A program made the translations under genes and the position numbers. The notes beneath the pieces were generated by a model. The model did no database searches and was not told where the DNA came from. It worked only from the letters and a program-made list of their open reading frames with translations. A stretch of DNA of 64,000 nucleotides from a virus: the IMG/VR virus record IMGVR_UViG_3300037840_000333, positions 1 through 64,000 of that record, one strand, 5' to 3'. Shown in pieces: positions 1 through 59,649 of this stretch (position 1 is the stretch's first letter; each line of letters starts with the position of its first letter).

Positions 1-38
1 CCGCAGTTCTTACACGGTGTCTTCGGTGGGCGACTCAC
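1..38 (-). CDS. N-terminus of a Cys-containing protein, cut by the window edge
   Basis: A GTG at 38 is preceded by a GGAGGAG ribosome binding site and opens a frame reading MSRPPKTPCKNCG before the window ends. The CxxC pair suggests a small zinc-ribbon protein like several others here. A 12-codon frame (35..73) lies just upstream and overlaps this start as GTGA, but it may only be the leader carrying the ribosome binding site. Only 13 codons are visible, so function is unknown. Confidence 0.45.
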   Translation of the reverse strand, partial: MSRPPKTPCKNC

Positions 39-69
39 GATTCCTCCTCCGCATCGTCCGAACGGTCGC

Positions 70-312
70 TCACCATGTCTCATACCAACCGCATCGCTCA
101 CACACACCAAATGCGGTCCACGAAGCCGGGCCACACCATTCGCACACGGCGAGGAATCTTGGCGCAGCCGTAATCTTCGGTGCCCGCTTGGGTGCTTGGG
201 CCGGATCAGGCATGGCCTCGTGCTGGCCCTTGGTGATGGCGTGCTCGCCGGTGTCGTCGTCGTCGGTCGCCGGAAGCTGGCCGACGCTGTGAGTGCGCTC
301 GTGGCGCTTCAT
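70..312 (-). CDS. Small zinc-ribbon protein, 80 aa
   Basis: The ATG at 312 overlaps the stop of the upstream gene as ATGA, so the two are probably translationally coupled. The C-terminal third has a CxxC-x10-CxxC arrangement (CEWCG and CERCG) expected to bind one zinc ion. The middle is acidic and low in complexity. Function is unknown; such one-zinc proteins are common accessory genes in actinobacteriophages. Confidence 0.7.
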   Translation of the reverse strand: MKRHERTHSVGQLPATDDDDTGEHAITKGQHEAMPDPAQAPKRAPKITAAPRFLAVCEWCGPASWTAFGVCERCGWYETW

Positions 313-695
313 ACCACGCCGCCTTCGGCCGCCTTCTGCAACTCCGCCTCGATCCTGTCCGCCAGCTCCTCGCAGATATGGCGGGCTCGGGTGCTGTCGA
401 ACACCTGGTCGCCGGGGGGCGGGTTCCAGCACATCGACGCCGCTCCAATGGCGATGCCGACGGCCTCCTCGATGTCGGAAGCCTCGTCCAGCACCTTCTC
501 CGGGCCGCCGGGCTGGCCGGGGCGCGGCTCCGTCTCCCGTCGGCCGGCGTCTCGGCCGACCTCGATGGCGTTGGCGAACCAGCCGAGCATGGTGCCGGTG
601 TCGATCCGCTGGTCCTGCTGCCAGAGGCGCATGAACTCTCGGGTCCAGACCTCGGCGTCCGTCGTGCTGTGCAACAGGTCGGTCAGCTCGCTCAT
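309..695 (-). CDS. Hypothetical phage protein, 128 aa
   Basis: It starts at ATG 695 behind a strong GAGGAGGAG ribosome binding site, and is the first gene after a GCTAGCGTTAGCG site that may act as promoter or operator. The sequence looks largely helical, with a mixed-charge C-terminal helix. No recognised domain. It is overlapped at its end by the zinc-ribbon gene downstream. Confidence 0.65.
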   Translation of the reverse strand: MSELTDLLHSTTDAEVWTREFMRLWQQDQRIDTGTMLGWFANAIEVGRDAGRRETEPRPGQPGGPEKVLDEASDIEEAVGIAIGAASMCWNPPPGDQVFDSTRARHICEELADRIEAELQKAAEGGVV

Positions 696-720
696 CGGCT
701 CCTCCTCGTGGTCGGCCGGT

Positions 721-735
721 CGCTAACGCTAGCGC
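721..735 (-). promoter_or_regulatory. Class II GCGCTAGCGTTAGCG site
   Basis: Read on the minus strand the sequence is GCGCTAGCGTTAGCG. It lies between the stop region of the 151-aa gene and the start at 695. The same core recurs at 25003..25017 and, in part, at 25161..25173. TAGCGT could serve as a -10 hexamer, or the near-palindrome could be an operator. Its role is inferred only from position and recurrence. Confidence 0.4.
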
Positions 736-1184
736 GGGGGCTCGCCTCGGGTCCTCCTCATCGCGGCCATCGCCTCCTCCACGCCGGCGGTGCCGGCTTC
801 CAGCGCCGCGCCGATCTCCGCCTCCTCGACGCCGATGGCACCCAGGGCGGCGAAGATGGCCTGGCCCACGGTGGCCTCCTCGGTGTCCGGGTGCATGCTC
901 GCCACGATCCGGCAGAACGGCGACGTCGCCGACAGCAGGAAGGTGACGGCCGCCACCCGGGTCGTTCCCTGATGGGCCTCGACGGCCGCTCGCACCTGAT
1001 CTTGCTCGTGCTCGGGCAGGTCGCCGCTGAGCGTCAGCTCAACGTGCCGGTGGCCGCAGTCCCGGGCCTCGTGGTCGGCCTCGTGCTGGTCCTCGGCCGG
1101 GCGACTGTCGATGAGCTGGTCCGTGTGGCTGATGCCGTGGACGAGGTGCAGGTGGGCCGCGGTCTCTCGGTGGTCGCCGCTCAT
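729..1184 (-). CDS. Hypothetical protein, 151 aa, His-rich N-terminus
   Basis: ATG 1184 is chosen because it overlaps the stop of the ribbon-helix-helix gene upstream as ATGA, matching the pattern throughout the window. The first 55 residues are rich in His, Asp and Glu, and the rest is Ala/Glu-rich and probably helical. No family recognised. Its stop lies next to the class II site at 721..735. Confidence 0.6.
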   Translation of the reverse strand: MSGDHRETAAHLHLVHGISHTDQLIDSRPAEDQHEADHEARDCGHRHVELTLSGDLPEHEQDQVRAAVEAHQGTTRVAAVTFLLSATSPFCRIVASMHPDTEEATVGQAIFAALGAIGVEEAEIGAALEAGTAGVEEAMAAMRRTRGEPPR

Positions 1185-1375
1185 CGGCACGTCAGGCAGG
1201 TGCAGGTGCCGGCATGGCTCGTCGTCCGCTGGCCGCGCTGGGGCGGTGCTCGCATCAGCAGGCGGCGCTTCGCCCATGCAACGGTTTCCAGCCCGGCCGC
1301 GGCGGCCTGGGCATCGACCTCAGCCCGCTCCTCCTCCGTCAGCCTGATGCCCAGCACCCGGGTCGTCCTCGCCAT
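1181..1375 (-). CDS. Small ribbon-helix-helix-like protein, 64 aa
   Basis: It reads MARTTRVLGIRLTEEERAEV and continues with an amphipathic helix, the pattern of MetJ/Arc-type ribbon-helix-helix proteins: a basic beta strand followed by two helices. The C-terminus ends with a CTCLTC cysteine cluster. It overlaps the last 56 bases of the terminase-small-like gene in another frame and couples to the next gene as ATGA. A DNA-binding regulator is plausible but unproven. Confidence 0.55.
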   Translation of the reverse strand: MARTTRVLGIRLTEEERAEVDAQAAAAGLETVAWAKRRLLMRAPPQRGQRTTSHAGTCTCLTCR

Positions 1376-2111
1376 CGGTGTTAACAATAGCGGGCTCGTC
1401 GCCGTTGCTGTTAACAGTCGCCACGGCCTCGATGGGCTCCGCCCGGCGCAGCAGCTCGGCCCGCTCCTGCTTGATCTGCTGCAGGCGGTCGTACACCTGC
1501 CGGCCCGTGATCGTGCTGGCCGGCGTCTCGGGCTCGGCCTGAGGTTCGCCCATTTCCGCTGGTCGCATGATCTTCCCGGCCACCTGGGCCGCTCGCCAAT
1601 CCGGTGGTGCCTCGTCGGTCTCGATGATGACCTGCTCGATCCGGCCGCCACTGACCTCGCCGTTCGCGCCGATTTCGATGGCCTGGTCGCCGGCGGTGAT
1701 GATCTGCCTGGTCCTCCGCCTGGTCGGGCGCTCCCGGGTCATGCCGGCCGCGCTGGCGATGGTGCCCCACACGAGCATGCCGGCCTGGCCCTGGGCCTGG
1801 CGGAACTCCAAGGCGAACACCATGCACAGGCGCTCAAACTGGTCTCGATCGTTCCACCGCTTCGCCGCGGCCAGGTCGGCCGTGCGCATCCACTTGGCGA
1901 GCGTGGTGCGGCTGATGCCCACGTAATCGCAGGCCACGGAGGGTGGAGCTCCACTGCGGACGCTGGTCACGAACTGGTCCTTCAGCGCGTTCGTGAGGCG
2001 CGTTTTAGGCCCCTGACCTCGGCGTTCTTGCCGCTGTTTTCGGGTCAGCGTCTCCATGGTCGGGCGTCGGTCGGGTATCGCCCCTGGTCGTGGGGTTTCC
2101 GCCGTCGTCAT
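1320..2111 (-). CDS. Terminase small subunit-like HTH protein, 263 aa
   Basis: Residues about 35-80 contain a helix-turn-helix of the phage terminase small subunit type (PPSVACDYVGISRTTLAKWM), followed by a helical segment typical of that family. A terminase small subunit recognises packaging sites and hands DNA to the large subunit. The C-terminal 100 residues are variable and acidic. The start at 2111 overlaps the upstream stop as ATGA. No large terminase is visible, so it may lie beyond the left edge; a plain transcriptional regulator is the alternative. Confidence 0.6.
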   Translation of the reverse strand: MTTAETPRPGAIPDRRPTMETLTRKQRQERRGQGPKTRLTNALKDQFVTSVRSGAPPSVACDYVGISRTTLAKWMRTADLAAAKRWNDRDQFERLCMVFALEFRQAQGQAGMLVWGTIASAAGMTRERPTRRRTRQIITAGDQAIEIGANGEVSGGRIEQVIIETDEAPPDWRAAQVAGKIMRPAEMGEPQAEPETPASTITGRQVYDRLQQIKQERAELLRRAEPIEAVATVNSNGDEPAIVNTDGEDDPGAGHQADGGGAG

Positions 2112-2464
2112 CGTTTCCGTCTCCGCTCGATCTTCGTCGCCTTGGCTGCGTTCGTGTCTGCCGTGGGATCGTCCAGATGCTCAACGAGGAGGGCGGCCGT
2201 CGTGATCTTCCACGTGTAGTCGCCCCGTCGGCCGTCGCCGGTGTCCCGCACCGCAATCCTCCCTTGGCGGTAGAGGGCCCCGAGGTACGGCAGAAGGTCC
2301 TCGGCGTAGGTTCCGTGCTCGCCGCCGTGCTCGTGGCGTAGGCGGGCAATGTGGGGCGGCTCGTGGACGACTGGCACCAGGGCTCGTGCCGTGATCGGGC
2401 CTCGCTCTCGGATGCTCTCGGCGAGCTGGTCCTCGTAGGCCTGACGGGCAGCCGCGGTGTCCAC
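2108..2464 (-). CDS. Possible winged-helix DNA-binding protein, 118 aa
   Basis: The protein has a helical N-terminus and then a segment (YLGALYRQGRIAVRDTGDGR) resembling the recognition helix and wing of a winged-helix domain, ending with a basic tail ERRRKR. It begins at GTG 2464 with no clear ribosome binding site and overlaps the terminase-small-like gene by 4 bp. DNA binding is inferred from the pattern only. Confidence 0.55.
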   Translation of the reverse strand: MDTAAARQAYEDQLAESIRERGPITARALVPVVHEPPHIARLRHEHGGEHGTYAEDLLPYLGALYRQGRIAVRDTGDGRRGDYTWKITTAALLVEHLDDPTADTNAAKATKIERRRKR

Positions 2465-2488
2465 GGGCGCCCATGGTACGACGCTCGG

Positions 2489-2893
2489 TTACCTCGGGGC
2501 GGGTTGCCGGCGCTGTACCCGGTTGGCCTTCGCCGGGCCGAGAGGCTGGCTGGGCACGATGCCGAGCTGGGCCGCAGCGTCGTTCTGCGCCTGGGCGGCC
2601 TGAGCGGCCTCCTCGGCCGCCTTCATGGCCTCAAAGTCCACGGCGTAGCCCTCCGCCTCGATGACCTCCCACGCGCCCGGGGCGACGGTCATGATGTCGA
2701 AGCCGAGGGCATGGTTCGGCTGATCGTCCAGCTCGACCCGCTTGCGGACCATCAGCTCGCCCTGGGGCCCGACCTGCCAGCCAGCGGCGAGCCCTTCCCA
2801 ACTCACCTGGCCGCTGATCGTCGTCGGGCTGTTGCCCTGGGCCTGCTGGGTGGCGGCGTCGGTCTCGTCCCAGGGGTGGAAGACGATGCCCAC
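2489..2893 (-). CDS. Hypothetical protein, 134 aa
   Basis: The GTG start at 2893 overlaps the TAG of the preceding gene. The first 85 residues look like a compact mixed alpha/beta domain rich in Trp and Gly; the rest is an Ala/Gln-rich helix and a Pro/Gln/Arg tail. No family recognised. It belongs to the same operon as the coiled-coil gene upstream. Confidence 0.6.
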   Translation of the reverse strand: MGIVFHPWDETDAATQQAQGNSPTTISGQVSWEGLAAGWQVGPQGELMVRKRVELDDQPNHALGFDIMTVAPGAWEVIEAEGYAVDFEAMKAAEEAAQAAQAQNDAAAQLGIVPSQPLGPAKANRVQRRQPAPR

Positions 2894-3195
2894 TAGAGGT
2901 CGATCCGGTCGCGCAGGCGGTCGAGGCGCAGCTCGATCGCGACCAGTCGGTTGCCGTCGGTGTGCAGGTCCATCGCCAGTGTCGAGCGGGGCGGGGGGTC
3001 CGTGCCGATCTTCTCCTCGGCCGCCTCGGGGTTGCCGGGCAGCACCACCCTGTCGAGCGCGTCCTCCAAGCGGGCGACGCCGTTCTCGATGCGGCTGATC
3101 GTGTTGGTCAGCTTCTCGTGCTGGGCCTCGACCTCGCCCGGCGACCGGGTAGCTACGGCGACAGCTCGGTTCGGATTTTCGGTGGTGGTCTCCAT
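2893..3195 (-). CDS. Small coiled-coil protein, 100 aa
   Basis: Residues 25-50 form heptad-like repeats (LTNTISRIENGVARLEDALD), followed by a charged C-terminus with further heptads. ATG 3195 is preferred over GTG 3204 because it lies 7 bp after a TAGCGT hexamer, the spacing expected for leaderless mRNA. Function unknown. Confidence 0.6.
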   Translation of the reverse strand: METTTENPNRAVAVATRSPGEVEAQHEKLTNTISRIENGVARLEDALDRVVLPGNPEAAEEKIGTDPPPRSTLAMDLHTDGNRLVAIELRLDRLRDRIDL

Positions 3196-3202
3196 GCGCC
3201 GC

Positions 3203-3232
3203 ACGCTAGCGCGGGCGTCTAGCTCCGTCGAG
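3203..3232 (-). promoter_or_regulatory. Putative leaderless promoter
   Basis: On the minus strand CTCGAC (3227..3232) is followed by 18 bp and then TAGCGT (3203..3208). Only 7 bp separate this from ATG 3195, as expected for a leaderless transcript. The -10 hexamer lies in a GCGCTAGCGT sequence shared with other intergenic sites here. Confidence 0.45.
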
Positions 3233-3234
3233 CG

Positions 3235-3591
3235 TCAGGCGTAGGCAAGCGACAAGCTGGCGTACCAGTTCGTGCCGTCGCTCCACGCTGCCACGCGGTC
3301 AACGGCGCTGGCCGTGGTGCTGAGCGTATGCGTGCCGCCGCTCCACTTCACGGCGCCGCTCGTGGCCGCCCACGTCGCCACGCGGCTCCCGGTGCCGTCC
3401 TGGCTGACGAGCACGTCGATCTTGCCGCCGGCGATGGGCGCCGGGAACGTGAGCGTCTGGCTGGCGGTGAGCGTGATCGAGCTGCCTCCGATGGGCAACG
3501 TCGCTCCGCCGGCGCCACTGCTGCCCAGCGCACCGAAGCCGGTTCCCTCGATGAGGACGCCGGCGGCGTCGCTTCCCTGTGGTCCACCCAT
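3235..3591 (-). CDS. Tail-fibre-like beta-rich protein, 118 aa
   Basis: It begins at ATG 3591 behind a GAGGAGA ribosome binding site. The sequence is Gly/Ser/Thr/Ala-rich and repeats short strands; it ends with AAWSDGTNWYASLSLAYA, the Asp-Gly-Thr-x-Trp/Tyr ending seen in many phage fibre or receptor-binding C-terminal domains. The N-terminal Gly-rich stretch could be a linker or collagen-like connector. It is odd among small regulatory genes far from the tail operon, so it could be an orphan virion decoration protein. Confidence 0.55.
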   Translation of the reverse strand: MGGPQGSDAAGVLIEGTGFGALGSSGAGGATLPIGGSSITLTASQTLTFPAPIAGGKIDVLVSQDGTGSRVATWAATSGAVKWSGGTHTLSTTASAVDRVAAWSDGTNWYASLSLAYA

Positions 3592-4807: not shown

Positions 4808-4981
4808 CTACAGCCCGAACCCTCGCAGCAGCTTCCTCGTGATGCCGTTCGTGGTCAGGTACACCTTGCGCCTCACGATGCGCTTGCCGTAGGCCGTCGG
4901 GCCCTTGGCCGCGGCCTGGACGTTGCCGAGGTCCCTGGCCGCTCGGTAGGTCTGATTCCGTAGCCGGCTGATCTTGCTCAT
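4808..4981 (-). CDS. Small basic protein, 57 aa
   Basis: ATG 4981 overlaps the upstream stop as ATGA. The protein is rich in Arg and Lys throughout (KRIVRRKVYLTTNGITRKLL), consistent with nucleic-acid binding, but no fold is recognised. Confidence 0.5.
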   Translation of the reverse strand: MSKISRLRNQTYRAARDLGNVQAAAKGPTAYGKRIVRRKVYLTTNGITRKLLRGFGL

Positions 4982-5160
4982 GGGCTGAACCTCGCCATTC
5001 GGTACTCCAATAGGTCGTGGTGGTACTTGCACAGCCCTCGCTCGTAGGGCTGGCGCTCGCACTCCTCGTGCTTGCACACCACCGGCTCGGCGTTCGGGGC
5101 GAACCTGTCCACCACGCCGGTCCCTCGGTGCTGCCAGACGACGATGTGGCGCCCGGTCAT
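4978..5160 (-). CDS. Small zinc-finger protein, 60 aa
   Basis: The C-terminal half contains CKHEECERQPYERGLCKYHH, a C-x4-C-x7-C-x2-HH pattern expected to bind zinc. It is close to the zinc knuckles found in phage HNH-type and small regulatory proteins. ATG 5160 overlaps the stop of the secreted hydrolase as ATGA. Confidence 0.6.
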   Translation of the reverse strand: MTGRHIVVWQHRGTGVVDRFAPNAEPVVCKHEECERQPYERGLCKYHHDLLEYRMARFSP

Positions 5161-5819
5161 GCCGGACACGTCCTCAGCTCGGCGGCGATGGCGTTGGCGA
5201 TCCAGGTGCTGCCCACGGCCGTCGGGTGGATGGCGTCCTGCACCACCAGTCCCTTCGGGCCGCCGGCCTCTAGGGCGTTGAGCTGTTGGAGCACCGTGAT
5301 GCCTCCGTCCGGGTTGATCCCTTCGCCGGCCAGCGAGGCTCGCACCGCGGCATTCCAGTCGATGACCCGGATGCGCCCTGGCTCCGCCTGGCGCAGTGCG
5401 TTGATCCGGCTGTCGAGCCGCTTGGCGATGGGGATCGTCGGCTGCCAGATGGCCGTCTCCTCGCTCACCGTGAAGAGGATCAGGCAGGGTGCGCTCGCCG
5501 TGTCGGCCATCAGCGTCTGCCAGGCCGTCAGCCAGTGGCGGTCGCTGCCGATGGCGTCGTTCGTCCCCAGGTTGATCACCATGTTGTGCGCTCCGGCGAA
5601 GGCCACGGCGTAGGGCATCATGTCTCCAATGCGCTTCCCCTCGATGGCGGCGACCTGATAGTTCTGGCCCGTAAGCGCCGTGGCGATGGCGGGCTCGGAC
5701 AGGTAGGTGATCGAGTCACCCACAATGGCGGTGGTCGGTGGTGCCGCTGCCGCGGCCGGTGCGAACAACATCGCCGCAGCGGCCATCGCCAGCAGGCAGA
5801 TGGTGGTGGTCCTTTTCAT
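5157..5819 (-). CDS. Secreted SGNH/GDSL-type hydrolase, 220 aa
   Basis: A Sec-type signal peptide covers residues 1-27 with an Ala-rich cleavage region. The mature part has the SGNH blocks in order: GDSIT with the nucleophile Ser36, NLGTND with Asn87, and DAIHPT with Asp195 and His198, matching the catalytic triad and oxyanion positions. Such enzymes hydrolyse esters or remove acyl groups from lipids or glycans. Signal peptide and position beside a sortase-anchored protein suggest action on the host envelope from outside. It is not next to the lysis genes, so superinfection exclusion or envelope remodelling is as likely as a role in lysis. Confidence 0.8.
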   Translation of the reverse strand: MKRTTTICLLAMAAAAMLFAPAAAAAPPTTAIVGDSITYLSEPAIATALTGQNYQVAAIEGKRIGDMMPYAVAFAGAHNMVINLGTNDAIGSDRHWLTAWQTLMADTASAPCLILFTVSEETAIWQPTIPIAKRLDSRINALRQAEPGRIRVIDWNAAVRASLAGEGINPDGGITVLQQLNALEAGGPKGLVVQDAIHPTAVGSTWIANAIAAELRTCPA

Positions 5820-6431: not shown

Positions 6432-7192
6432 GCCTGGCGCCGGCGGTAGTGCCGCTTCATCAACAGTCCGCCGGCTCCGAGAAGCACGATGCCGAGGACG
6501 AGGATGGGCGTCACGTTCGGGTTACCCGTGTACGCCAGCAACGGACCGCCTGCTGGCCCTGTGGCCGTCGTCGGGGTCGCTGGGCTGGTGGGTGGGGCGG
6601 CCGGCGTGCCGGGGGCCGGAGGGGAAGCCTGGGGAGGCGCTGGCGGGCTGCTGGCTGGTGGCACGGTCGCCGGTGGCGGGACCACCGGGCAGTTGGCGCT
6701 CGCTGGCTTGCCGGTCGGGCTGCACTGTGGCGTCGTCGGCGTGGTGACCGGGACCGTCGGGGTCGTCACCGGGACCGTCGGCGTGGTGACCGGCGGTGGG
6801 CAGTTGTCCAGCATGTCCTTGTGCCCCACGATGACCTTGCCGTCCGGGGGTGGCGTGCGCTCGGCGTCGTACTGCACCGTGCCGCACACGGCCGGGTAGG
6901 CCACATGCAGCGTCTCGCCCGGCGTGCTCCCGCTCGCCGTCCCGTAGATGGTGTTCTTCGCCGGGTCGTTGACCGAGAGCGTCCAGGTGCAGCCGTCCTC
7001 ATCGGCCGGGCACGCCGGCGTCGGGATGGTCAGTTGGAACTGCTGGGCGCTGTCATTCGCCACCAGGGTGACGTCGTCGGCGCCCGCAGCCTGGGCAAGC
7101 GCAATGCTCCCCAGCGTGAGCGCCGCTACTGCAGCGAGGACGATGGCGATGATGCCTGCCAGCCCTCCGTATCCATCGGTGTCGCGTGTCAT
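6428..7192 (-). CDS. LAYTG sortase-anchored surface protein, 254 aa
   Basis: ATG 7192 is chosen for its strong AAAGGAAG ribosome binding site; ATG 7246, overlapping the helicase stop, is an alternative. Residues 8-37 form a signal peptide. The exported domain is followed by a Val-Thr-Pro repeat (VTTPTVPVTTPTVP) and a long Pro/Ala linker. The C-terminus has LAYTG at 219-223, a hydrophobic helix, and the basic tail KRHYRRRQA: a complete cell-wall sorting signal of the LAXTG type used by actinobacterial class E sortases. This predicts covalent attachment to the host wall. A phage-encoded wall protein could block further infection. No enzymatic domain was recognised. Confidence 0.75.
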   Translation of the reverse strand: MTRDTDGYGGLAGIIAIVLAAVAALTLGSIALAQAAGADDVTLVANDSAQQFQLTIPTPACPADEDGCTWTLSVNDPAKNTIYGTASGSTPGETLHVAYPAVCGTVQYDAERTPPPDGKVIVGHKDMLDNCPPPVTTPTVPVTTPTVPVTTPTTPQCSPTGKPASANCPVVPPPATVPPASSPPAPPQASPPAPGTPAAPPTSPATPTTATGPAGGPLLAYTGNPNVTPILVLGIVLLGAGGLLMKRHYRRRQA

Positions 7193-7242
7193 GGTGCTTC
7201 CTTTCGGTTGGGGGGTGTTGCGGGGGGTGTTGCGTGTCGCTC

Positions 7243-8988
7243 TCATCGTGTCGCCTCCGCCTTGGTCCGCTCGGGGTACACGACTGCGAGGGCTGGGGGG
7301 CAACCCTCAATGTCCAGATGCCGCCGGGCTCGGGTGCATGCAACGTACAGCAGGCGGTACTCGCCGACGTCCATACGCTCCAAGGGGAAGAAATCGCCGG
7401 CGAGCTGCACGCTGTCCCACTCCCGGCCCTTGCTCTTGTGCGCCGTCGAGACCACCACGTCGGCGTCCTCCTCGGCGGTCTCGTTCCCGGCGACCTTGAT
7501 GATGGTGTCCACGCCGTGGTCCTCGATCAGCTTGACCATCGGCTTCAGCTCGTCGCCGAGGATGTCGCTCTCGACGTAGCGCAGAACCTCGCCCCACGAG
7601 GCGAAGATGGCCAGCTCGGGGTGCTCGGTGCGCCGGCCCTCCATCAGGTCCTTCGCTCCCTGGGCGAACTCCACGATCTGCGTGCCTCCGCCCACGAGGT
7701 AGGGCGTGCGCCCGGCCTCTAGCTCGCCCAGCATGGCGATGATGGCGCCGGCGTTCGTCCGGGTGAGGATGCAGTCGGGCGTCTCGGTCGGGCCGACCGT
7801 TCCCGGCTTCCCCTTGCCTGTCAGCCGCAGCTCGGCGCCCTCGATGCTGGCGAGGATGGCATTGGCGACGGCGGCAATCTCGGGCCCGAAGCGGAAGCTG
7901 TTCGTCAGGTAGCGGGTCCGCTCGGCGGGCACCTGGGCCATGGCGTCGATGGCGCCCATCCACTCGTTGATGGCCTGCTGCGAGTCGCCGACGAACAGGG
8001 TCTGCTTGTCCTGCTGCAGGATGGCGCTGAGCATGACCGGGTTCATGTCCTGGGCCTCGTCCACCATGACGAACTCGCCCGGGATGACCGGCTTGCCCCG
8101 CACGCCCAGCTCCCACATCTTGACGTAGTGGTAGTGCTCAAACCGCAGCGTCCCGCTCGTGTCCTGAATGTCCTCCCACGCCGCCTCTAGGGCGTCGCTC
8201 AGGTGGGCAGCCAGCGCGTCGTTGTTGGCGTAGGTGCGCTCGCCGTCGTCTGTCGGCAGGTCGATGCCGGCGACGAGGCTGAAGTGCTTCACGCTCGGGT
8301 GCTTGTCGGCCGACTGGCAGAAGTTCTTGACGGCCTTCATCACGTAGCTGGCCTGCTGCTTCGGCTGGATCACCCGGGTCTCCTCGCCGACCTGGCAGAC
8401 GAACGGGGTGCGGAGCCCGAGCTGGCGGGCCATGGCGCTCCCGCTCTGGCGCTTGCCCTCGTCCATGCGGTGGCTGTAGTGCTTGCCGACCTGGCCGAAG
8501 GCGAGCGAGTGGACCGTGCGGGCCTTGACATTCTTCGGCAGCTTCGCCGCCGCGTCCATCACGATGCCCTTGTTGAACGCCGTGAACGTGCCCATCAGGG
8601 TCGTGGTCTCGGCACAGGCGACGCAGGTGCTCGTCTTGCCGCTGCCAGCGCCGGCCTGGGTGGCGCCGCTGACGCCGGCCCGGAAATCGGTCACCACGAG
8701 CTGCTGCTCGTCGGTGAGTGGGTGGCGGTCCTTCGGCGTCGGCGTCGGCTCCGCCGGCTTCGGGATCGTCGGGGTGCTCGTGCCGGTGGCCGCGTCGCAC
8801 GCCGCCTGGCCGCTGAACACGCCGCCGTCGGGGTCGATCTTGCCGTGCCGGGTCACCCACACCCGCTTGCCGTCGTCCTCAACGTGGAGCTGGGCGATGC
8901 CGGTGGTCGCCGGCACGCTGGCGCCGCAGCGAGCACACGGCTTCGTGTACCGGCTGCGGATCGTCTTGGCGGGGGTCTCGGCGCTCAT
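7243..8988 (-). CDS. UvrD/Rep-like superfamily 1 helicase with zinc-binding N-terminus, 581 aa
   Basis: The N-terminal 65 residues contain a CxxC pair (PCARCG). Residues 113-120 (GAGSGKTS) are the Walker A motif and VDEAQD near residue 310 is the Walker B/DEXX motif of SF1A helicases. Motif V/VI-like segments follow (STAHKSKGREWDSVQL and LLYVACTRARRHLDI). It should unwind DNA 3' to 5' using ATP in replication, recombination or repair. It lacks the size of full UvrD, which is common in phage versions. ATG 8988 overlaps the upstream stop as ATGA. Confidence 0.88.
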   Translation of the reverse strand: MSAETPAKTIRSRYTKPCARCGASVPATTGIAQLHVEDDGKRVWVTRHGKIDPDGGVFSGQAACDAATGTSTPTIPKPAEPTPTPKDRHPLTDEQQLVVTDFRAGVSGATQAGAGSGKTSTCVACAETTTLMGTFTAFNKGIVMDAAAKLPKNVKARTVHSLAFGQVGKHYSHRMDEGKRQSGSAMARQLGLRTPFVCQVGEETRVIQPKQQASYVMKAVKNFCQSADKHPSVKHFSLVAGIDLPTDDGERTYANNDALAAHLSDALEAAWEDIQDTSGTLRFEHYHYVKMWELGVRGKPVIPGEFVMVDEAQDMNPVMLSAILQQDKQTLFVGDSQQAINEWMGAIDAMAQVPAERTRYLTNSFRFGPEIAAVANAILASIEGAELRLTGKGKPGTVGPTETPDCILTRTNAGAIIAMLGELEAGRTPYLVGGGTQIVEFAQGAKDLMEGRRTEHPELAIFASWGEVLRYVESDILGDELKPMVKLIEDHGVDTIIKVAGNETAEEDADVVVSTAHKSKGREWDSVQLAGDFFPLERMDVGEYRLLYVACTRARRHLDIEGCPPALAVVYPERTKAEATR

Positions 8989-13255: not shown

Positions 13256-13798
13256 TCAGGTCAGCGCCCAATCGAAGTACCCGAGGGCCCGAATCTCCCT
13301 TGCGAGCTGAGCCGTCGGGGCGGTGGCGTCGAGGGTCACGGCGTGGTCGTGCCAATCGTGCGCCAGCTTCAGGAACTTGGTCCGCCGGCCCTTCACCCAC
13401 CCGGGGTTCTGCTGGCTCCCTCGGCGCGCTCGCCGGTCCGCCGCCACGTCGCTCGGGGCGTTGAGGACGACCAGCCGCCACTCGTCGCACCACTCGGTCA
13501 TGGCCTGGAAGAACCTGCCGTTCGCCAGCCGGTCGCCCTCGCCGAACACGAACGGCGTCGGGGCCTGGCTCAGCCAGTCGATAGCCCGGGGCAGCACGCT
13601 CATGCTCAGCCGGTCGGTGCCGGGGTAGTGCGGGTCACTGCCGCCGATCTGTGCCGCCTGGGGCCGCCCGTCGTCGCTGAGGTAGACCGCATGGGCGAAC
13701 GGGGTGTAGCGCCACTCGGGGTCGGTGCCGGCGGTGAGAGCGGCCACGAGGGCGCTCTTGCCCACGCCGGGCTCGCCGATGAAGTAGAGCCCGTTCAC
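13256..13798 (-). CDS. P-loop kinase, probable hydroxymethyl-base DNA kinase, 180 aa
   Basis: The Walker A motif GEPGVGKS is at residues 8-15, with a possible Walker B/LID region around VFGEGDRL (84-91) and Arg-rich catalytic segments at 121-140. Size and features match small P-loop kinases that phosphorylate nucleic-acid components, including phage 5-hydroxymethyl-dU DNA kinases. Its GTG overlaps the stop of the PLP-enzyme gene. As the last gene of the operon with a TET/JBP-like dioxygenase, its likely substrate is the hydroxymethyl group of an oxidised base in DNA. A nucleotide or small-molecule kinase is an alternative. Confidence 0.6.
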   Translation of the reverse strand: MNGLYFIGEPGVGKSALVAALTAGTDPEWRYTPFAHAVYLSDDGRPQAAQIGGSDPHYPGTDRLSMSVLPRAIDWLSQAPTPFVFGEGDRLANGRFFQAMTEWCDEWRLVVLNAPSDVAADRRARRGSQQNPGWVKGRRTKFLKLAHDWHDHAVTLDATAPTAQLAREIRALGYFDWALT

Positions 13799-14832: not shown

Positions 14833-15888
14833 TCACAGTCGGCGCGCCGCCGGCGCCTCGCCGGTGTCGATGGCCAGGTTGAACGGGTTGCTGTAGAGCC
14901 TCGGCCACGCCCGGTGCATCATCACCGGGCAGCCGTGCTCCCGGTAGTAGTTCTGCTTCGCCGGCACGCAGCCCGGGTCGTGGGGCACGTCCTCTAGGCG
15001 CAGGTACGGGGGCAGGCACGCCCGCCTGGCCTCCCACAACACATCGAAATCCTCGAGCCGGTGGCGCCGCTCGGCCTTCCGCAGCCGGTCGAACAGCAGG
15101 TCGTTGTAGACGTTCGGGTAGCGCCGGTTCGGCCGGTGCCAGCTCTTGTAGGTGCAGAGGGCGCTCTCCATCGTGAAGTAACCCACGTCCGGGTGGTCGA
15201 TCTTCTCCCGGGCCTCGGCGAGCAGCTTCTCGCCCTCCTCGGTCAGCATGTCGATGGTGTCGTCGTCGTAGCCGGCGAACCCTGGGTTGCTCGGGTGCCA
15301 GTCGAGGTCGTCGCGGCCGAGGACGATGGCGAGCCCGTTGCGGTGGCTGCGGCTGCCCGGTATGTCGTCCATGAACAGCGTGTCGCACTCGACCGGCACG
15401 CCCATGATGGCCAGGTACTCGCTGAAGCTGAACGCGCTGAGCCGGCCGAACGTCGGGATGGCCGTCGCCACGTCCCACACGCCGGAGAATCCGCCCTCGG
15501 CCGCGCCGTGCCACAGGGCTCGCTGGCTCCCAGCTCCACGGACGAGCTCGGCGTAGCCGGCGACCGCCTGGGGCAGCGCCTTGCGATGGTGCCGGCGGTC
15601 GGTGTCGAACTCCAACTCGGGCCGGTGGGCGTCGAACCACTGGCACAGCTCGGCCGCCTGGGCGATGGTCGGGAATCGCCGGTGGAGGATCAGGCTGGTC
15701 GCCGGGTGCTGGGTGTTGCCGTTGAGGAAGGCGAACCACAGCGCCTGCTCCTCGTCCCATCCCAGCCGGTCCCGCAGGTAGGGCATCAGGTAGTACACGG
15801 CGCCCGGGTGGCTCCGGTGGGTCAGGTGGAACTCGTAGAAGTGGAGGAACGTCTGCCGGCGGTGCTCGGGCTGCCGGTAGTCGGTCAC
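14833..15888 (-). CDS. Protein resembling the helical domain of phage 5-hmdU DNA kinases, 351 aa
   Basis: Residues about 15-70 (FHLTHRSHPGAVYYLMPYL, then LWFAFLNGNTQHPATS and LHRRFP) and about 95-115 (EFDTDRRHHRK) resemble a helical domain family found in phages beside or fused to 5-hydroxymethyluracil DNA kinases and pyrophosphorylases. Here it is separate from the P-loop kinase two genes downstream. The C-terminal half has conserved-looking Asp/His/Cys residues. A role in recognising or transferring groups to the modified base is likely by association. GTG 15888 overlaps the dioxygenase stop. The family assignment is from memory of sequence patterns and needs a profile search. Confidence 0.5.
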   Translation of the reverse strand: MTDYRQPEHRRQTFLHFYEFHLTHRSHPGAVYYLMPYLRDRLGWDEEQALWFAFLNGNTQHPATSLILHRRFPTIAQAAELCQWFDAHRPELEFDTDRRHHRKALPQAVAGYAELVRGAGSQRALWHGAAEGGFSGVWDVATAIPTFGRLSAFSFSEYLAIMGVPVECDTLFMDDIPGSRSHRNGLAIVLGRDDLDWHPSNPGFAGYDDDTIDMLTEEGEKLLAEAREKIDHPDVGYFTMESALCTYKSWHRPNRRYPNVYNDLLFDRLRKAERRHRLEDFDVLWEARRACLPPYLRLEDVPHDPGCVPAKQNYYREHGCPVMMHRAWPRLYSNPFNLAIDTGEAPAARRL

Positions 15889-16718
15889 GCCATCAGCCCG
15901 CTCTCACGCTGGCGCTCGATCAGGGTGTCCTCCCGCTCGCTCCGGGTCACCCGGGCCTGCTGCATCTCGGTCTCCACGTCGAGGCACTGCGCCATCCTGG
16001 CCACGGTGTAGTAGACGCCGGTGTAGCGGTAGCCGTCGGGGTCCTTCCGGCGGATCGGCGTCACGCCGTGCAGGGTCTCGTAGGCGGGCATGAACAGAAG
16101 GTCGCCGTCCCGGCAGGCGAGCACCTGGCGGTACTGCGGTATGTGCAGGTGGCCGCCTCGGGTGCCGCGCCGCATCGTGAACATGGCGTTCCACGTGGGC
16201 AAGTTGTTTTGGTCGTAGTGGTAGGGCAGGGGGCTGGTCTCGTTCAGCACGCCGCTGGTCCACTGCGTGCCCCGCATGCGCCACTCGGGCCGGATGATGT
16301 GGGCCCGTTCCTGGTCGATGCGCGCCCGGTCGGGGTGGTGCTCCTCGAATGCCCGGCTGAACTCCCAGGCCATGTCGGTGAGGATGCCGTGGGCTCCGGG
16401 CGCCTCGATGCTCCCGCTGCACTCCCGGCAGCCCTCCCGGCGCAGCACGGCGTTCCGGCTGGCGTAGCCGAACACGTTGGACTTGTTGCGCACGCCGCTG
16501 CTCCGCAAGGTGGTGCTCATCGGGTAGGCGATGCACGCGCCACGGAGCCGTGTCTGCAGGCGCTCGGGTATGTGGAGCACGATGGCGAGCGGCCGGCCGG
16601 TCTCGCTGTCGATCAGCTTCGCCTCGCCCTCGGTGGTCGGCTCCATCTCAGGCACCGTCTCGCGCAGCAGGTGGTGAACCTTGGCCTTCGCCACCTGATC
16701 GCACTCGATCACCTTCAT
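15885..16718 (-). CDS. TET/JBP-like 2-oxoglutarate, Fe(II)-dependent dioxygenase, 277 aa
   Basis: The double-stranded beta-helix core shows the iron-binding HxD at His167-Tyr-Asp169, the distal histidine in ETLHGVTP (His217), and a downstream Arg (231) in YRYTGVYYTV that could bind 2-oxoglutarate. A small, compact core with a GGHLHIPQY strand between the metal ligands fits TET/JBP enzymes, which hydroxylate the methyl group of thymine or 5-methylcytosine in DNA. No cytosine methyltransferase is near, which favours thymine as substrate. The gene overlaps both neighbours by 4 bp. An oxygenase for protein or small molecules cannot be excluded. Confidence 0.62.
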   Translation of the reverse strand: MKVIECDQVAKAKVHHLLRETVPEMEPTTEGEAKLIDSETGRPLAIVLHIPERLQTRLRGACIAYPMSTTLRSSGVRNKSNVFGYASRNAVLRREGCRECSGSIEAPGAHGILTDMAWEFSRAFEEHHPDRARIDQERAHIIRPEWRMRGTQWTSGVLNETSPLPYHYDQNNLPTWNAMFTMRRGTRGGHLHIPQYRQVLACRDGDLLFMPAYETLHGVTPIRRKDPDGYRYTGVYYTVARMAQCLDVETEMQQARVTRSEREDTLIERQRESGLMA

Positions 16719-17371
16719 GCCGCCGGATGCTCCTCGTCGTACTCCCGCAGCATTGCCACAAACAGCTCGGCGTTGCTCGGGGCCTCGTAGTGCCGGCGGG
16801 CTCGGTGGGCCATCGCCGCCACGTAGCCGTACTGGTCGAGCGGGTAGTCGAGGACGAGGCTGCGGACCTGGGTGTTGCGAGCGTTGCCGGCCGCCGGGGC
16901 CGCCGGGGCGCTCTCCTGCAGCTTGGCGTAGAGGTCGTCCACGTCGTCGGGCAGGTAGCCCACGCCGTCGAGCCCTGGGCCGCGCTGCAGCTCCCGTAGC
17001 CCTTCCAACAGGGCCGGCCCATCCCAGCCGGCTATCTCGGTGAGCCGATTGTCCGCCACCAGGTAGGCGTCGGCCTCGGCGTCGTCGGTGCTGGCCCACC
17101 CTCGCACCACGGGCACCTTCCACACGCCGTCCCGGTCGGTCTCGATGCCCTCGGCCGGCGTGGCGCCCGCCTTCATGTCCACCTGCAAGAGCTGGGTCCG
17201 GCCGTGTCCGGCGACCAGCCGGCCGGTCCGCTCGTCGAGGATGGCCGGGACGGTGAAGCCGAAGCGGTCGAAGCTGGCCCGCAGCATGTCGAGGTCGTGC
17301 CTCCTCGGGTTGCGGAGGGCGGGCACGAGCGTGTCGATCCGCATCATTTCCAGCCGGCGCTCCTCGCTCAT
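16715..17371 (-). CDS. ParB-like protein 2, 218 aa
   Basis: Residues 10-65 form a ParB/Srx-type domain (RIDTLVPALRNPRRHDLDML, then DERTGRLVAGHGRTQLL). The remainder parallels the protein encoded just upstream: RGWASTDD, YLVADNRLTEIAGWD and SNAELFVAML all recur. The fold includes CTP-dependent DNA clamps, nucleases and small-molecule kinases. In this operon a DNA-targeting or kinase role is plausible. The gene overlaps its neighbours by 4 bp on both sides. Confidence 0.75.
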   Translation of the reverse strand: MSEERRLEMMRIDTLVPALRNPRRHDLDMLRASFDRFGFTVPAILDERTGRLVAGHGRTQLLQVDMKAGATPAEGIETDRDGVWKVPVVRGWASTDDAEADAYLVADNRLTEIAGWDGPALLEGLRELQRGPGLDGVGYLPDDVDDLYAKLQESAPAAPAAGNARNTQVRSLVLDYPLDQYGYVAAMAHRARRHYEAPSNAELFVAMLREYDEEHPAA

Positions 17372-18084
17372 GCCGGGTGCTTGCTCTCAAACTGGCGCAG
17401 CATGGCGATGAACAGCTCGGCGTTCGTCTCCACGCCGAACGTCTTGCGGGCCCGGGCCGCGGTGGCGATCACGTATTCGTACTCCTCGACCGGGTGGTCG
17501 AAGATGATGCTGCGGAGCTGCTTGTTGCGGTAGTTGTCGGCCCGCTCGCCGTAGCTGTTCTCCGTCTCGCTGGTCGGGTCCGGCTTCGCCGGTTCCAGCA
17601 GCTTCGCCATCGCCGCCGGCGTGAAGCCCGTGCCGGCCAGGCCGAGGTCGCCGGCCTCCAAGGGGGTCAGCATCTCGTGCAGCTCGGGGTTATCCCAGCC
17701 ACCCAGCTCGGTCTGGCGATTGTCGGCGATCAGATAGGCCATCGCCTCCTCGTCGTCCCGGCTGGCCCAGCCCCGGGTGACGGGCACCAGCCACTCGATG
17801 TCGTCGGGGTGCTCGGGGTCGTCGGGTACGAGCGTCCGCACGCCCTCGGGTGGGCTGGCGCCGTCGGCGTGCATCTGCGTCAGCAGCTCGTAGCGGCCGT
17901 GGCCGGCGGCGATCAGCCCGGTGCGCTCGTCAATCAGGATCGGGTTCGTGTACCCGAAGCGGTTGAAGCTCTTGCGCAGCTCGGCCGGTTTGTGGGTCCT
18001 CGGGTTGCGCGGGTGGGGGCGCAGCTCGCCGAGCGGCATGTGGGCGATCCGCCGCCCGGTGAGCGCCGCGCCCTTCCCCCTCAC
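17368..18084 (-). CDS. ParB-like protein 1, 238 aa
   Basis: Residues 16-70 carry the ParB-like domain (LRPHPRNPRTHKPAELRKSF, then DERTGLIAAGHGRYELL) and residues about 125-165 contain RGWASRDDEEAMAYLIADNR. It shares its layout and many motifs with the next gene, so they arose by tandem duplication and diverged. It lacks the HTH needed for a plasmid-partition ParB. GTG 18084 overlaps the upstream stop. It opens the run of overlapping genes that forms the modification operon. Confidence 0.75.
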   Translation of the reverse strand: MRGKGAALTGRRIAHMPLGELRPHPRNPRTHKPAELRKSFNRFGYTNPILIDERTGLIAAGHGRYELLTQMHADGASPPEGVRTLVPDDPEHPDDIEWLVPVTRGWASRDDEEAMAYLIADNRQTELGGWDNPELHEMLTPLEAGDLGLAGTGFTPAAMAKLLEPAKPDPTSETENSYGERADNYRNKQLRSIIFDHPVEEYEYVIATAARARKTFGVETNAELFIAMLRQFESKHPA

Positions 18085-18548
18085 TCGTCCTCGTCCTCCG
18101 CTGGCATCGGCAACTGTGCCTCGCCCCGGGCCGCCCGCTTGGCCGCCTCGGCGTCGCTCCGCGCCTTCTTGACCTTCGCCATGTGCTTCGCCACCATGTC
18201 GGCGCCCAGCTCGGGGTCGATGAACAGGCAGCCGTCCGCTTCCAGCTTCAGCGTCTCGCAGAACTCCTCGATGGGGTAGGCGTCCTTCCCGCTGCCCTCG
18301 GTGATCCGCTTGTAGTTGTGGCCCTTGGCCGTGGCGTACACGAGGACCATCACCCGGCTCTCGACCGGGACGTGGACCGGGGCGATGCCCATGCTCTCGC
18401 TCAGCCCGTCGCCGCACTTGGTCAGGTCGGCGACGGTCATGGTCACCGGCATGCCGTCGTGATCGGGAATCTCCTGGGCCTCCAACTCGCTCGGCGAGGC
18501 GTAATCCTCGAGGACGCTGGTGGCCGCCTGGCTCAGCCGTGGGCTCAT
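18081..18548 (-). CDS. Hypothetical protein, 155 aa
   Basis: ATG 18548 has a strong GCAGGAGGC ribosome binding site in the 29-bp gap after the VRR nuclease gene, so it may begin the transcription unit that includes the ParB and dioxygenase genes. The sequence has an alpha/beta core (ESRVMVLVYATAKGHNYKRI) and a charged helical tail ending in EDEDE. No family recognised; association with DNA modification is by position. Confidence 0.6.
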   Translation of the reverse strand: MSPRLSQAATSVLEDYASPSELEAQEIPDHDGMPVTMTVADLTKCGDGLSESMGIAPVHVPVESRVMVLVYATAKGHNYKRITEGSGKDAYPIEEFCETLKLEADGCLFIDPELGADMVAKHMAKVKKARSDAEAAKRAARGEAQLPMPAEDEDE

Positions 18549-58803: not shown

Positions 58804-59649
58804 TTAGACCGACCCCTGGCGCTCCGGTCGTAGGTGGCCCGCGGCGTTGATGGCGTCCACGATCCCGGCCAGCAGCAGGTCGGGGTTTCCGCCGTAGCCG
58901 TTCTTGCCCCAAAGCTGCTGGGCCTGCGGCAGGTTGTAGAACGCACGGAAGGTGTCCTGCACCGGGGTCGTCATGGGGTTGGTCGAGTACTCGTTGTAGG
59001 TCTCTCGGATGAACGCGTTGATGGCGCCCGTGTCGGTGCAGCCGGTCGGCAGTCCCATGATGATCGTCTCCTGATTGGTCGGGTTGGGGTTCGGCGCGCC
59101 GAACAGGGAATAGAAGTGGGCCGGCGGTCCGATCCAGATCGAGGCATCGACCTGGCCGCCGATCCCGGCCACGGTGGCGGCGTCGGTGTTCTGCCACACG
59201 TCGCCGAACCCGAAATCCTTCCCGTAGCTGGCCGGCCACAGCATGGCCCGCAGGATGGTGGTGCCGGCTTGCAACGTGCTGGCGCTGCCGTAGTCCAGCT
59301 CCTCGGCCAGCGGGAGGTTCAGCTCGGCGAGGAACTGATTCTGCCAGGCGAAATCCTGGCTGGTCTCGCTGTCGAGCACTCGGGCTCGGGTGCCGGCGAC
59401 CGCGAGGAAGTGAGCCGCCTCGGCCGCTACGTCACCGAACTCGGCGAAGTGGTAGGCGAGCGTCGGGATGCCCACGGCCGCGAAGCCGGCGGCGTCCTGG
59501 CCGTAGTAGGGGTTCGTGTAGCCGACGCCGTCCGTCGCCTTGATGAACACGGCAATCACGCCGGCGCTCGCTGCCGCCTGGTAGTCGATGGGGTGCGGAT
59601 TGTTGCTGCTCAGGTCGATCAGGATGCCGGGGATCGTCTGGCTGCTCAC
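58804..59649 (-). CDS. GH25 lysozyme (endolysin), 281 aa
   Basis: It has the GH25 motifs in order: GILIDLSSNN with Asp12, VFIKATDG, YHFAEFGD, VLDSET with Asp93 and Glu95, and DVWQNTDA, ending in a C-terminal domain (residues about 195-281) likely to bind the wall. GH25 enzymes cut the MurNAc-GlcNAc bond of peptidoglycan. It lacks a signal peptide, so it needs a holin. GTG 59649 overlaps the upstream membrane gene. Confidence 0.85.
   Translation of the reverse strand: MSSQTIPGILIDLSSNNPHPIDYQAAASAGVIAVFIKATDGVGYTNPYYGQDAAGFAAVGIPTLAYHFAEFGDVAAEAAHFLAVAGTRARVLDSETSQDFAWQNQFLAELNLPLAEELDYGSASTLQAGTTILRAMLWPASYGKDFGFGDVWQNTDAATVAGIGGQVDASIWIGPPAHFYSLFGAPNPNPTNQETIIMGLPTGCTDTGAINAFIRETYNEYSTNPMTTPVQDTFRAFYNLPQAQQLWGKNGYGGNPDLLLAGIVDAINAAGHLRPERQGSV

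Follow-up and report, generated by a model that had tools for sequence, protein, structure and literature searches.

The window analysed here, bases 1-64,000 of an 87,120-base viral contig from IMG/VR (about 87 kb and possibly incomplete), encodes an operon whose products probably act on the replicated DNA of the phage, turn thymine into a hypermodified base and thereby shield that DNA; we put the chance that this reading is right, with a base of the type found in phage ViI or a close relative of it, at roughly 70 %. In the first step, a TET/JBP-family dioxygenase (TET) would hydroxylate thymine in DNA at its 5-methyl group, and the hydroxyl group of the resulting 5-hydroxymethyluracil (5hmU) would then be phosphorylated by a P-loop kinase. 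An amino acid:DNA transferase (ADDT) would swap the phosphate for an amino acid and a PLP-dependent enzyme would decarboxylate the attached residue, with 5-(2-aminoethoxy)methyl-dU or a closely related base as the most likely product. The modified base is expected to protect the phage DNA from host nucleases, while ParB-like proteins encoded upstream may serve to target the oxidase or the DNA. What the sequence itself shows is which genes are there, their order, their catalytic residues, their homology to enzymes of phages ViI and M6, and that no C5-cytosine methyltransferase or hydroxymethylase was detected; the reactions, the substrate, the product, the benefit and the part played by ParB are inferred from these findings.

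Such a route would couple the opening of one known pathway with the closing steps of a second. To our knowledge, characterised phage TETs act on 5-methylcytosine (5mC), and thymine-oxidising TET/JBP enzymes have been proven only in kinetoplastids, although operons combining TET/JBP, kinase and transferase genes are said to have been predicted in phages by Iyer et al. 2013. The operon offers a concrete, testable case for a thymine oxidase from a bacterial virus that is tied to amino-acid-based hypermodification. A thymine-specific TET could place the modification at chosen sites, and together with its kinase and transferase it would serve as a tool to label thymine in DNA. Neither a TET front end combined with a ViI-type ADDT-PLP pair nor the replacement of a hydroxymethylase by a TET was found described in the literature searched, which is a weak negative, as key pathway papers lay outside the search.

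Operon layout and identity of the dioxygenase

The six genes run in the order ParB-ParB-TET-ADDT-PLP-kinase on the minus strand from 18417 to 13256 (Table 1). Because stops and starts overlap at three junctions (ParB/TET, TET/ADDT and PLP/kinase), the operon genes look co-translated, the single gap being about 100 bases between ADDT and the PLP gene. The likely start of the kinase is a GTG at 13798 within a reading frame that stays open to 13873. Elsewhere in the window, 58804-59649 encodes a glycosyl hydrolase family 25 protein (E=3e-15) that is likely the endolysin; neither a terminase nor a cultured relative of the phage was identified.

Table 1. Genes of the predicted thymine hypermodification operon, with positions in the window.
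Predicted product	Position	Strand	Remarks
Second ParB-like protein	17368..18417	-	phrog_620 E=6.4e-33 over residues 123-311
ParB-like protein, 218 aa	16715..17371	-	phrog_620 E=2.8e-27; directly upstream of TET, overlaps its start
TET/JBP-family 2OG-Fe(II) dioxygenase, predicted thymine-DNA hydroxylase	15885..16718	-	277 aa; ATG at 16718, stop ending 15885
ADDT (amino acid:DNA transferase)	14833..15888	-	PF18724 E=1.5e-18; 351 aa; GTG start overlaps TET stop
Fold-type-II PLP-dependent enzyme, predicted to decarboxylate the attached amino acid	13795..14739	-	about 314 aa; probable ATG 14730
P-loop kinase, predicted 5hmU-DNA kinase	13256..13798	-	Ploopntkinase3 (PF18751) E=6.8e-26

The first-pass annotation had delimited the dioxygenase gene correctly, and its proposed active site (HxD at 167-169, His217 and Arg231) is borne out by alignments of 10 and of 54 homologues, in which the iron ligands H167-Y-D169 and H217 and the distal 2-oxoglutarate arginine R231 are invariant. 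On its own, the protein matches the Pfam model Tet_JBP (PF12851) only weakly, with an E-value of 0.0062 that lies under the curated cut-off. The model is nonetheless matched by all 54 alignment members with a best E-value of 1.6e-12, and one relative clears the cut-off with 36.7 versus 34.9 bits. Searching the PDB with the family profile gave five matches, among them Naegleria Tet (5cg8 and 4lt5; E 0.006-0.008) and TET2 (0.06), which align over the part that holds the distal histidine and arginine; the remaining two matches, to a designed TIM barrel and to an exonuclease partner, lie elsewhere and look like chance.

We consider it highly improbable that the substrate of the dioxygenase is a free nucleotide, RNA or a protein instead of DNA. 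The plausible PDB matches of the family are Tet enzymes that act on DNA, and most related loci have DNA-base modification neighbours, either ADDT and kinase or a TET-associated glycosyltransferase, even though 2OG oxygenases are diverse, 11 of the 54 alignment members also weakly match the generic 2OG-FeII_Oxy model, and no DNA-binding domain was found beyond the core. A separate base-J-binding domain as in JBP1 was likewise not found in the 277-residue protein, the only Pfam match of which is Tet_JBP. The window shares with kinetoplastid JBP1/JBP2 the TET/JBP core and the predicted conversion of thymine in DNA to 5hmU, but differs in the absence of a J-binding domain and in the predicted addition of an amino acid, whereas the JBP product is glucosylated to base J.

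In PHROG, the window TET goes under queuine tRNA-ribosyltransferase, a name that was rejected as a misannotation in view of the matches between the family profile and Tet enzymes. The same name is widespread across the TET/JBP family, as seen for phrog_6059 and many gp2 proteins of cluster B mycobacteriophages (for example 813-1691 in locus L005 and 776-1744 in L012).

Thymine or 5-methylcytosine as substrate

Several phage TETs that act on 5mC and are coupled to a C5-cytosine methyltransferase (C5-MTase) are reported by Burke et al. 2021. Like the window TET, these are TET/JBP dioxygenases within phage DNA-modification operons, but there a C5-MTase is linked, while none was found in the contig studied here. 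The first-pass annotation had seen no cytosine methyltransferase nearby, and this extends to the whole 87,120-base record, from which PF00145 is absent while control genomes were positive. The small methyltransferase that it had suspected among the fibre genes was not recovered, since neither PF00145 nor PF13649 gave a match in the record and no methyltransferase was present in ten proteins scanned. C5-MTases are equally absent from nine out of nine complete cultured relatives, eight of which carry the PF18751 kinase.

The picture across the wider family is less uniform, with C5-MTase matches over the cut-off in 4 of 50 relatives. One of them, L054, holds the same four-gene cassette as the window and encodes a 222-aa C5-MTase-like protein with PCQ and ENV motifs at 4932-5600, about 4-5 kb upstream of TET, whereas L076 has two short C5-MTase-like ORFs in a row at 6612-7831, about 2-3 kb upstream. 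These proteins may be independent anti-restriction methylases, yet given their presence the TET family as a whole cannot be claimed as thymine-specific. Together with the reported activity of phage TETs on 5mC, they speak for the alternative that the window enzyme oxidises 5mC supplied by the host or by an unsequenced phage C5-MTase, and that kinase, ADDT and PLP enzyme elaborate 5hmC. We regard this as unlikely in view of the absence of a C5-MTase from the virus's own record and from the cultured relatives, and because the back-half enzymes are homologous to those of 5hmdU pathways, whose alternative front end is a dUMP-type enzyme.

The 5hmdU pathways in question are those of Salmonella phage ViI and Pseudomonas phage M6. 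ViI DNA contains 5-(2-aminoethoxy)methyl-dU (5-NeOmdU) in place of 43 % of its thymine, and M6 DNA contains 5-(2-aminoethyl)-dU (5-NedU); in both, a DNA kinase phosphorylates 5hmdU within the DNA, which is then converted to the final base (PMC6449724). M6, ViI and Glutamicibacter phage Montesquieu each have a ThyA-type enzyme (PF00303), while none of the 32 TET-bearing records tested contains this dUMP hydroxymethylase family, nor does the contig itself in a search with a positive control. Conversely, Tet_JBP was not detectable in M6 and Montesquieu by a search that was positive in TET phages, nor in ViI, where the search had no positive control of its own. This mutual exclusion suggests that TET and the dUMP-type hydroxymethylase replace each other before the same kind of back half, so that two routes to 5hmU have apparently been exchanged.

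Position 177 of E. coli ThyA separates uracil from cytosine enzymes (PMC8670742). Read by eye from alignments and the GxxxxN motif, this position is Asn in the enzymes of M6, ViI and Montesquieu and Asp in the CMP hydroxymethylase MilA, which places the shared back half in the uracil series. With a TET replacing the dUMP-type enzyme in front of such a back half, the window TET most likely oxidises thymine in DNA, a prediction that is well supported by its context. The preference for thymine over 5mC expressed in the first-pass annotation is thereby strengthened, as neighbours from 5hmdU pathways, the missing C5-MTase and the swap between TET and hydroxymethylase all point the same way. For the more general scheme, in which JBP-like oxidation of thymine within DNA leads to an aminoalkoxy or other amino-acid-derived thymine and a nucleotide-level hydroxymethylase or a TET interchangeably feeds one shared tailoring set, we see the balance tilted slightly in favour.

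Kinase, transferase and PLP enzyme

The partner gene described earlier as hydroxymethyluracil-kinase-like does encode a real kinase, but as a Ploopntkinase3 protein (PF18751) it falls outside the HMUDK families of M6 (PF18748) and ViI (PF18747), and it shows no pairwise similarity to M6 gp54. We know of no trial of the PF18751 family on 5hmU DNA. Most of what can be learned about the pathway comes from the ADDT and PLP genes, which had been overlooked.

The window ADDT shares 50 % identity with Zemanar gp3, 41 % with its counterpart in Montesquieu and 29 % with the ViI ADDT (E=6e-22). The latter is encoded at 151151-152179 of the ViI genome, Vi01_203 having been rejected as a candidate. The PLP enzyme has no Pfam match, but it matches phrog_3650 with an E-value of 1e-77 and is 36 % identical over most of its length to the PALP-family protein Vi01_182 of ViI (E=1e-59). 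Searches with phmmer brought up weak similarity to D-cysteine desulfhydrase and ACC deaminase, and the candidate PLP lysine K43 of the enzyme is invariant in the alignment. No pairwise match to M6 gp52 was obtained.

In comparison with ViI, the operon combines a homologous ADDT and PLP enzyme and a DNA kinase with a different start: in ViI a ThyA-type hydroxymethylase makes 5hmdU as a nucleotide and the kinase belongs to the HMUD2 family (PF18747), whereas the window is predicted to use oxidation in DNA by TET followed by a PF18751 kinase. The amino acid installed in ViI we take to be serine. M6 shares the ADDT, a PALP-type PLP enzyme and the kinase logic, but it relies on a dUMP-type hydroxymethylase and on HMUDK_HMUD1/HMUDK_hel, and has only a remotely related PLP enzyme. 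A radical SAM enzyme, which in M6 is gp53, was looked for and not found, which sets the operon apart from M6 and is consistent with a ViI-type route. With a ViI-like PLP enzyme and no radical SAM enzyme found, 5-NeOmdU is our best guess for the product.

As the ADDT is distant from that of ViI and the PLP enzyme lacks a pairwise match to M6 gp52, both the installed amino acid and the final base are uncertain. A pathway that holds through 5hmU and its phosphorylation but ends in a base unlike that of ViI, owing to another amino acid, a lack of decarboxylation or a PLP-catalysed elimination, is a serious if less favoured possibility, and it overlaps with our main reading insofar as the latter allows a close relative. 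The low ADDT identity, the different kinase family and the many reaction types hosted by the fold of the PLP enzyme would fit such a product, but the PLP enzyme is clearly of the ViI type and the ADDT-PLP pair is kept together.

An alternative name for the kinase, terminase small subunit (phrog_800 and also the name used in cluster B phages), was rejected because the protein is a Ploopntkinase3. Cluster B mycobacteriophage genes called terminase small subunit are themselves strong Ploopntkinase3 matches, so that this annotation is probably wrong: a protein scan returned an E-value of 3e-71 for Zemanar (L094, 2875-3465), and genome searches gave 1e-73 for Nigel (L012, 1786-2382) and 1e-62 for Acadian (L005, 3022-3588).

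Distribution and modularity of the cassette

The suggestion that a TET of this kind would be unusual for a phage did not hold, as homologues are encoded in 95 phage records, mostly from phages of Mycobacterium, Microbacterium, Arthrobacter and Gordonia, and one of them, gp2 of the cluster B4 phage Prince, is already annotated as thymidine hydroxylase. Cluster B4 mycobacteriophages such as Zemanar and Prince show ParB, TET, ADDT and kinase in the same order as the window, including a TET homologue and a Ploopntkinase3 protein, but their cassette is without the PLP gene; no description of their modification chemistry was found in the literature searched. Montesquieu has the adjacent ADDT and PLP genes (the latter 33 % identical) and Ploopntkinase3 kinases, but carries its ThyA-type pyrimidine hydroxymethylase in place of TET.

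Among 80 related IMG/VR loci, a ParB homologue lies upstream of TET in 76. Downstream, by classes counted by hand, a glycosyltransferase (TAGT or GT) is encoded in 34 loci and a kinase in 27, the latter accompanied or not by aGPT/ADDT, PLP or FAD enzymes. The other 19 loci have neither back half, and several of these are truncated; as the loci are fragments, absences among them weigh little. The full TET-ADDT-PLP-kinase set occurs in the window and in 7 of the 80 related viral contigs. A concatenated TET+ADDT+PLP query against 50,697 phages found no record in which a single stretch covered 80 % or more of the query; as the search counts one place per record, scattered genes would be missed.

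Compared with the loci L054, L067 and L072, the window shows 56-58 % identity for ADDT and PLP enzyme, but 37-39 % for TET, 32-35 % for the kinase and 26-27 % for ParB. The higher identity of the former two suggests that ADDT and PLP genes travel as a functional unit between ParB-TET-kinase backbones. In line with such mobility, the window TET sits in the tree on a long branch near L021 and L030, outside the other TETs of PLP-containing cassettes, a placement that is unsure because of long-branch effects.

The two ParB-like genes upstream of the window TET are tandem paralogues; the first 120 or so residues of the second ORF are unmatched and its true start is probably internal. Tandem ParB genes upstream of TET also occur in L010, L054, L057, L059, L067, L077 and L080.

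Another type of cassette is found in L011 (Kozie, 1-3273), L076 and L081, where TET is accompanied by an ADDT/aGPT-type gene, an FAD-dependent DAO-family oxidase and a kinase, a set which suggests that the attached amino acid is trimmed by oxidation. In Acadian (L005, 1707-3588), TET is followed by both a TET-associated glycosyltransferase and a Ploopntkinase3 protein, making it the only surveyed locus with both back halves.
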